From Atopococcus tabaci DSM 17538 (lineage in GTDB: Bacteria > Bacillota > Bacilli > Lactobacillales > Carnobacteriaceae_A), in the NCBI RefSeq assembly GCF_000429585.1, contig NZ_AUCD01000012.1, positions 1-41,527 on the forward strand: a DNA stretch of 41,527 nt. The letters run 5' to 3'. Both the position numbers and the translations under genes were made by a program. This document shows positions 78 through 35,590 of the stretch, piece after piece (within the stretch, counting starts at the first letter, position 1; each line of letters opens with the position of its first letter). The notes beneath the pieces are model-generated. The model was not told where the DNA came from. It was given only the letters and a program-made list of their open reading frames with translations, and did no database searches.

Positions 78-103
78 TTGGGTTCCTCTCTTTCTTCTTC
101 ACA

Positions 104-247
104 TTGAAAGACCCTCACTGCTTCATTTCGTATCCCATTTCCTTTACCCGGACTCATGGTCCCACATACTTAAACCTAATTGAGAAATGACAGTGAAGGA
201 GCTCTGTTTTTGTTTTGGACTCGTGGTCCTCGAGAGCTTGTTCGAGC
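104..247 (-). ncRNA. Candidate IS110 bridge RNA in the transposase 5' non-coding region
   Basis: On the transposase-sense strand, bases 199-184 can pair with 129-112: CCTTCACTG pairs with CAGTGAGGG (one G-U), and TCATTTC with GAAATGA, with a 2-base bulge. The resulting 16-bp stem encloses a 54-base loop (130-183). Two near-identical small palindromes of the form GGAC-N5-GTCC lie at 150-162 (inside the loop) and 217-229 (outside it), and a further CTCGA/TCGAG hairpin lies at 229-246. There is no open reading frame here. Placement upstream of the transposase matches where IS110-group elements encode the bridge RNA, whose stem-loops carry target- and donor-binding loops. The RNA ends, guides and expression are inferred, not shown. 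Confidence 0.5.
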
Positions 248-286
248 TTCCTTTCACCCTTACTATACTTCTATAAAAGAAAAATA

Positions 287-320
287 GTAGGCAGAAACCC
301 CCGTCGAGGTTTCTACCTAC
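287..320 (-). terminator. Intrinsic terminator after dtd
   Basis: A 13-bp stem (287-299 with 308-320, one G-T pair) has an 8-base loop and is followed on the minus strand by ATTTTTCTTTT. It lies 17 bases after the dtd stop codon and probably ends the relA-dtd transcript, insulating it from the IS110 element downstream. Confidence 0.85.
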
Positions 321-336
321 TAATTTTAGTATGTTT

Positions 337-34708: not shown

Positions 34709-35590
34709 TTATTTTTTCAATTGGTTTTGTACTTCTTCTGCGAAGTTTTCTTGGCGTTTTTCGATTCCTTCGCCCACTTCGTAACGAGTGAATGCTTTGA
34801 TGGAAGCACCGTTTTCTTTCAAGTATTGACCAACTGTTACATCAGGGTTCTTAACGTATGGTTGGTCTACCAAGCTGATTTCAGCCAACCATTTGTTCAA
34901 GCGGCCTTGAACCATTTTTTCGATGATTTTTTCAGGCTTGCCTTCGTTTTTCGCTTGTTCTTTCAAGATTTCCAACTCATGGTCAAGTTCTTCTTGAGGA
35001 ACTTCGTCACGAGTGATGTAACGAGGGTTGATGGCAGCGATGTGCATTGCAACGTTACGTGCAATTTCTACATCTTCTGTTCCGTCAAGAACAGTAAGAA
35101 CCGCAATACGTCCGCCCATGTGTTTGTAATCACCAAATACTTGGTTGTCTTCTTTTTCAACAATCAAGAAACGACGCAAAGTGATTTTTTCACCGATGGT
35201 TGTAGTCGCTTCTGTGATTTCAGAAGCAATTGTTCCATCGTTCATTTTAACATCGTTTGCAGCTTCAACATCCGCAGGTTTTTCAGTTGCGATTGCTTTA
35301 GTGATGTCTTGTACCAATGTTTGGAATTGTTTGTTTTTCGCTACAAAGTCAGTTTCAGCATTGATTTCTGCGATAACTGCAGTGTTTCCGTTCACGTGGA
35401 TGTCAGCCAAACCTTCTGCAGCGATACGGTCAGCTTTTTTAGCCGCTTTGGATACGCCTTTTTCTCTCAAAAAGTCGACTGCCGCGTCCATGTCCCCGTC
35501 TGTTTCAACAAGAGCTTTTTTCGCGTCCATCATTCCCACGCCTGTTTTGTCGCGCAATTCTTTTACTTGTGCAGCTGAAATTTTAGCCAT
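34709..35590 (-). CDS. tsf: Elongation factor Ts
   Basis: EF-Ts exchanges GDP for GTP on EF-Tu. The 293-residue protein has the N-terminal UBA-like helices with [16 protein letters not shown] (about 11-26) and the core with ETDFVAKN (about 78-85) that contacts EF-Tu. The start ATG 35588-35590 follows TAGGAGGA; an upstream in-frame start at 35657-35659 is rejected as lying in structured leader. It follows rpsB but is separated by a terminator and a leader of about 140 bases, so it may be partly independent. Confidence 0.97.

Follow-up and report, generated by a model that had tools for sequence, protein, structure and literature searches.

The window analysed here comprises 41,527 nt of contig NZ_AUCD01000012.1 from Atopococcus tabaci DSM 17538 and starts at a contig edge (G000:C11) of a 2.27-Mb draft genome. 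At this edge lies a minus-strand open reading frame (77-1) whose translation is that of an IS110-type transposase start, as a preliminary description of the locus had proposed. Only the first catalytic D falls within the 25 residues present. Upstream of the frame is a non-coding leader (about 336-78, minus strand), and the stop codon of dtd (337-339) adjoins the element boundary at its far end. Coordinates are collected in Table 1.

Table 1. Features of the leader and its surroundings, with the basis for each assignment
Feature	Position	Strand	Basis or remark
DEDD (IS110-family) transposase start, first 25 codons	1..77	minus	translation MTYVLALDVSMGKSYAVLYQAEVCI; contig end cuts gene
Donor-binding domain (loop 2)	112..199	minus	closed by the donor-loop stem
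Donor-loop closing stem	199-184 with 129-112	minus	16 pairs, 2-nt bulge, 54-nt loop
Predicted right donor guide AGGAAA	138..143	minus	same sense as RE GTAGG+AA; z 4.6
Terminal hairpin of donor loop, GGACCATGAGTCC	150..162	minus	
Predicted left donor guide AAGUAUGU	164..171	minus	complementary to LE ACATACT; z 7.7
Target-binding domain (loop 1)	193..257	minus	consensus structure; terminal hairpin GGACCACGAGTCC at 229-217
Putative right target guide AAAACAAAAAC, A-rich	206..216	minus	z 2.3; TGTCAA match in sister element
Predicted left target guide AAGCUCUC	232..239	minus	GCTCTC at 3/3 own-genome right-end junctions; family signal z 12.1
Alternative helix, 3' arm of 5' stem-loop (289-284) with downstream 5'-arm repeat (266-261)	261..289	minus	
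5' stem-loop and U-tract, terminator-like	280..322	minus	five sites beside different genes; covarying stem
Left subterminal inverted repeat CTAAAATTAGT	319..329	minus	family consensus CTAAGATTAGT; 7 bp from junction counting core
RE partner of left repeat, CTACGATTAGT (or CTACGTTTAGT)	3 bp from right end		RE sequences from own genome
Predicted -10 box TAAAAT (TAAGAT in relatives)	323..328	minus	completed by right-end -35 TTGACT, 17-bp spacer, circular form only
Core dinucleotide AA, left end (element/host junction)	335..336	minus	five-copy comparison; AA in 42/42 homologues

The leader occurs in five copies in its own genome, each at a contig end and each beside different genes, and all five share the left end (LE) ACATACTAA, preceded across the junction by AA. 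The assembly is interrupted within each copy, which leaves the left and right flanks of the copies unpaired in this genome. Right ends (RE) were located by the pattern TTGACTAAACGTAGG followed across the junction by AA, which gave three. At one further locus (L160; G000:C14 near 34919-34935) the left end AAACATACTAAGATTAGT is joined directly to the target repeat AGAGCGGGACAAAATGC, and this is a decayed or internally deleted copy.

An initial alignment of five proteins held no conserved block usable for a scan. Using a transposase alignment to scan 84,980 species genomes, we recovered about 80 relatives in the Bacilli (Bacillales and Lactobacillales) with the leader upstream of a DEDD transposase, and in all loci read the RNA precedes the transposase gene. 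Nearly all carry an LE of AA followed by ACATACT and an RE of TTGACTAAWCGTARG followed by AA. At both junctions, 42 of 42 non-redundant elements have AA as the short common core, without target-site duplication; the core is AA/TT and not the CT expected earlier. Subterminal inverted repeats (sTIR; CTAAGATTAGT/CTACGATTAGT) of 11 bp lie at offsets of 7 and 3, with an offset difference of 4 in 60 of 76 loci. The full 11 bp is present in many members, and the repeat is shorter or more mismatched in the window copy and some relatives. On an Enterococcus hirae plasmid (NZ_CP068116.1; L043, 1184-3010), a two-frame transposase that looks like IS1182 family sits just inside an IS110-type left end, beside its hairpin.

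The full-length homologues contain DEDD_Tnp_IS110 and Transposase_20 domains, match the NCBIfam IS110 model and have D/E/D/D/S catalytic residues that align to those of IS621. PF01548 gave no match in the source genome because the element body falls into assembly gaps, and the transposase body is accordingly absent from that assembly. The transposase is about 24% identical to that of IS4321 over 357 aa, and that of IS621 is alignable mainly in the C-terminal part. Since it is equally distant from the two, we assign it to the superfamily and not to either of the groups.

In the preliminary description, the candidate bridge RNA was given a stem at 199-184/129-112. The pairs, bulge and loop of this stem were as described, with two G-U pairs instead of one. 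The folding energy of the window copy is ordinary (z -0.48; 56 of 200 shuffles as good), and it is because homologues covary, not because of folding energy, that the stem is more than chance. Across 40 homologous leaders, alignable over their whole length, 78% of cells pair in this stem, and 72 cells are changed on both sides, compared with a mean of 37 in shuffles and 7-27 in slid controls. Covariation scores 0.327 in the true register and 0.056-0.100 when slid. The predicted RNA is longer than this stem, which closes the donor loop only: the RNAalifold consensus consists of a 5' stem-loop, a two-part domain with the hairpin GGACCACGAGTCC, which is the target loop, and a second domain with GGACCATGAGTCC, the donor loop. 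Both-side changes were found in 25 of its 35 pairs, 6 of the 35 being LE with donor guide, that is, DNA-guide matching and not an RNA helix. Searches of Rfam at gathering and permissive thresholds returned no match. In Enterococcus phoeniculicola, one leader (L074) is missing what normally separates the near-identical hairpins of loops 1 and 2 (GGACTACGAGTCC), as if deletion by recombination between hairpins had left a single hybrid loop.

Column-by-column covariation with the target is weak because the distance from core to repeat varies by 0-4 nt. We therefore used a register-free sliding match, in which 13-nt windows along the leaders of 42 elements were compared with the flanks and ends of the same and of other elements. 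Related sequences inflate permutation z-scores in such a comparison; as a control, the rest of the leader gives no such signal (for the left target, median z over the leader about 0.5). The left-target match was scored with the reverse complement of the right flank and is highest at leader position 94, on the 5' side of loop 1 (z 12.1; 6.21 nt for own against 3.89 nt for other flanks). The left donor, scored with the reverse complement of LE, has its maximum at 160-163, on the 5' side of loop 2 (z 7.7), and the right donor (RE) peaks at 190, on the 3' side of the same loop (z 4.6). The right target peaks at 112-118, on the expected 3' side of loop 1, with a z of 2.3 that weakly supports a guide there; for the window copy, we infer this guide. 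All four predicted guides sit where IS621 has them. With the right target guide as the weak member, the loops thus match the elements' own ends and own insertion sites and the stem covaries, the two points on which the bridge RNA proposal could have failed.

Compensatory changes follow the ends: the LE variants CAACCT, CAATCT and CAGACT have the loop-2 partners AGGTTG, AGATTG and AGTCTG, and relatives with RE GTAAG carry RNA AAGAAA. Also, natural reprogramming is visible, at the level of sequence, in the guide/target pairs. The own-genome guide GCUCUC faces three targets GCTCTC, a sister genome combines the guide AGCCUC with the target AGCCTC, and in Aerococcaceae GAGGCUUU goes with GGAGGCTTT. 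In two held-out elements, the match to the own right flank extends over 10 nt (ISSep2) and 9 nt (an element of Bacillus arachidis), which none of 40 other targets equals. The 6-nt left-guide match of the window copy is likewise equalled by 0 of 40 other targets; that of the sister genome, also 6 nt, is unspecific alone (13 of 40 others as good). Among sister elements (L024, L030 and L033 in G023; L027, L031 and L034 in G017), the left flanks are mostly TTCTCTGTCAA or TTCTTTGTCAA, with L027 differing, and in the G023 loop 1 the right-side target guide has a different natural sequence, AUGUCAAAC.

As targets, the elements use A-tracts next to dispersed repeats that are palindromic or terminator-like. 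Right flanks read AA(A)GAGGCTGGGACAAAA and, in the own genome, AA(A)GAGAGCGGGACAAAATGC, a dispersed repeat with 19 pattern matches there (reversed control 0). Most of these, about 15 copies, are unoccupied and have an A-rich tract before the repeat; the three own-genome right ends are all at GAGAGC repeats. A multi-copy intergenic repeat AGAGCGGGACAAAATGCGTTTAGACCCGAACC was seen in the same genome (for example L156-L173), and in many Bacilli the elements are flanked by similar repeats whose inverted ends lie 85-400 nt from each other (for example Shouchella, L080-L087). That all targets are simple intrinsic terminators was not supported by a strict test, in which 11 of 76 right flanks had an immediate hairpin, 22 had a partner arm 85-400 nt away and 43 had neither; the safer wording is therefore the edge of palindromic or dispersed repeats, some of them terminators. 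For IS621, similarly, the insertion sites lie at REP palindrome edges (PMC11208160). In the open-access literature searched, we found no description of this target repeat, nor of terminators as the target.

On computational evidence that establishes the conserved structure, both ends, the core, the donor guides, the left target guide, the polarity and the promoter geometry, the leader is very probably the left non-coding end of an insertion sequence of the IS110/IS1111 superfamily that encodes a bridge RNA for the target and for its own ends, with IS1111 polarity. The element could instead be an ordinary IS110-group member, like IS621 or ISEc21, with IS110 guide polarity. An RNA upstream of the transposase, a long LE with a short RE and the NCBIfam match all fit such a member, and the upstream position, described earlier as that of IS110-group RNAs, stands. 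The guide polarity and the ends, however, are IS1111-like. On its 5' side, loop 1 favours the right flank over the left in 31 of 40 elements (5 ties), and loop 2, also on its 5' side, favours LE over RE in 38 of 40, whereas in IS621, read in the same way from an E. coli genome (query confirmed by its matches), the left guide agrees in sense with the left flank and the left donor guide with RE. Strand matches run in opposite order in IS110 and IS1111 (PMC11187229), and the order here, with the top-strand complement 5' of the bottom-strand match, is that of IS1111 and not that of IS110 (bottom 5' of top). The 11-bp sTIRs with their 7- and 3-bp extensions also argue against an ordinary IS110 element, which we consider improbable; an sTIR of 11-13 bp with a 7-bp left and a 3-bp right extension is the IS1111 signature (PMC11187229).

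Two other explanations concern the hairpin at the left end. In the preliminary description the element began downstream of a dtd terminator, and on this contig the hairpin (285-322) does follow dtd directly. However, five insertion sites next to different, unrelated genes share this hairpin and about 10 bp beyond it almost unchanged, and relatives have it at the same place with arms changed but still paired. The hairpin is therefore part of the element, which starts directly beside the dtd stop codon, and a host terminator here is scarcely conceivable. Alternatively, the leader could be a structured 5' UTR whose terminator and fold-back limit transposase expression from outside, with the protein choosing the target. 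The conserved terminator-like hairpin with its U-tract suits this proposal, and insertion sequences are commonly shielded against read-through in such a way. Yet it does not predict that loop 1 follows the flanking target or that loop 2 follows the element ends, and we regard it as very unlikely; a terminator function may exist in addition to the guide role.

As a bridge RNA element with IS1111 polarity, the locus shares features with several known systems and is identical to none. Like IS621 (PMC11208160, PMC11208158), these elements have an RNA in the LE with a 5' stem-loop, target loop and donor loop, in that order, with left guides on 5' sides and right guides on 3' sides, a predicted promoter across RE-LE, D/E/D/D/S catalytic residues and a target at a palindromic-repeat edge. 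They differ from it in that the 5' guides of IS621 read the left flank and RE and theirs the right flank and LE, and in their AA/TT core (CT in IS621). IS621, moreover, has no long sTIR and no U-tract after its 5' stem-loop, and its transposase is alignable mainly C-terminally. With the seekRNA elements of the IS1111 group (ISEc11, IS4321/IS5075; PMC11187229) they have in common the 11-bp sTIR, both extensions and the strand order, but there the RNA lies downstream of the transposase, which in IS4321 is about 24% identical. ISEc21, of IS110 type (PMC11187229), has its RNA upstream of tnp and a junction promoter, with the opposite order of strand matches; a long sTIR was looked for in ISEc21 and not found. 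ISSep2 of Staphylococcus epidermidis (IS110 family, NZ_CP093203.1) is likewise close: it has the same LE ACATACTAAGATTAG and RE TTGACTAATCGTAGGAA, an upstream RNA, a 5' hairpin with a U-tract, a transposase of 400 aa and, in loop 1, the guide CCAGACTCTT with a 10-nt match to the right flank of the element. Its transposase is 38-42% identical to the homologues used, and it has another guide and target. A few IS1111 elements with upstream RNA were noted earlier and not followed up (PMC11187229), and we found no study of such elements in the open-access literature searched.

Across the RE-LE junction, TTGACT-17-TAAGAT or TAACAT is present in 73 of 76 loci. The start predicted for this promoter, leader position 17-18 (window 316-317), falls within the 5' stem-loop, in its 5' arm. 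RNA that enters from outside folds into a hairpin flush with the U-tract in all 40 leaders; for RNA starting at 17 or 18, this holds in 3 or 0 of 40. The position of the predicted start within the arm therefore suggests that only outside read-through is terminated. The alternative helix (Table 1) has 93.5% of cells paired, with 19 both-side changes against 5.4 in shuffles, and appears in the MFE fold of 18-25 of 40 leaders. Polymerase arriving from the host would produce the complete hairpin, flush with its U-tract, and stop, protecting host and element. RNA from the junction promoter would begin within the 5' arm and form no flush hairpin, and the 3' arm would refold with the downstream repeat. 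If this switch is true, junction-started RNA escapes termination and bridge RNA and recombinase would therefore be made from excised circles only. It is possible, though we think it rather doubtful, that these elements represent a third stable arrangement, with IS1111-type ends and polarity, an RNA moved upstream, and a start-site-selective terminator limiting RNA and recombinase to excised circles.

In the scheme that we infer for transcription, RNA binding and recombination, excision would join the element ends, so that the RE-LE junction forms the promoter TTGACT-17-TAAAAT, from which an RNA of about 200-240 nt and then the recombinase mRNA would be made. The 5' side of loop 1 would pair with the GAGAGC strand, at the end of the dispersed palindromic or terminator-like repeat, and its 3' side with the A-rich sequence on the other side of the target; loop 2 would pair with the element's own joined ends. 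The RNA-bound recombinase would then exchange strands at the AA core, the RNA reading both DNAs opposite to IS621 (IS1111 polarity) though encoded upstream of the transposase.

Bridge RNAs are in development as programmable recombination tools. If a guide predictor takes the polarity of IS621 for granted in upstream RNAs, target and donor halves would be assigned wrongly in these elements. In the published view, IS110 (upstream RNA, one order) and IS1111 (downstream RNA, sTIRs, reverse order) are two coherent groups, and the same work deduces that the RNA moved from one end to the other. A large group in the Bacilli, including ISSep2, that combines an upstream RNA with IS1111 ends and order indicates that RNA position is separable from polarity. 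The group supplies natural guide/target pairs for rule-finding, and with it the question of RNA relocation becomes testable.
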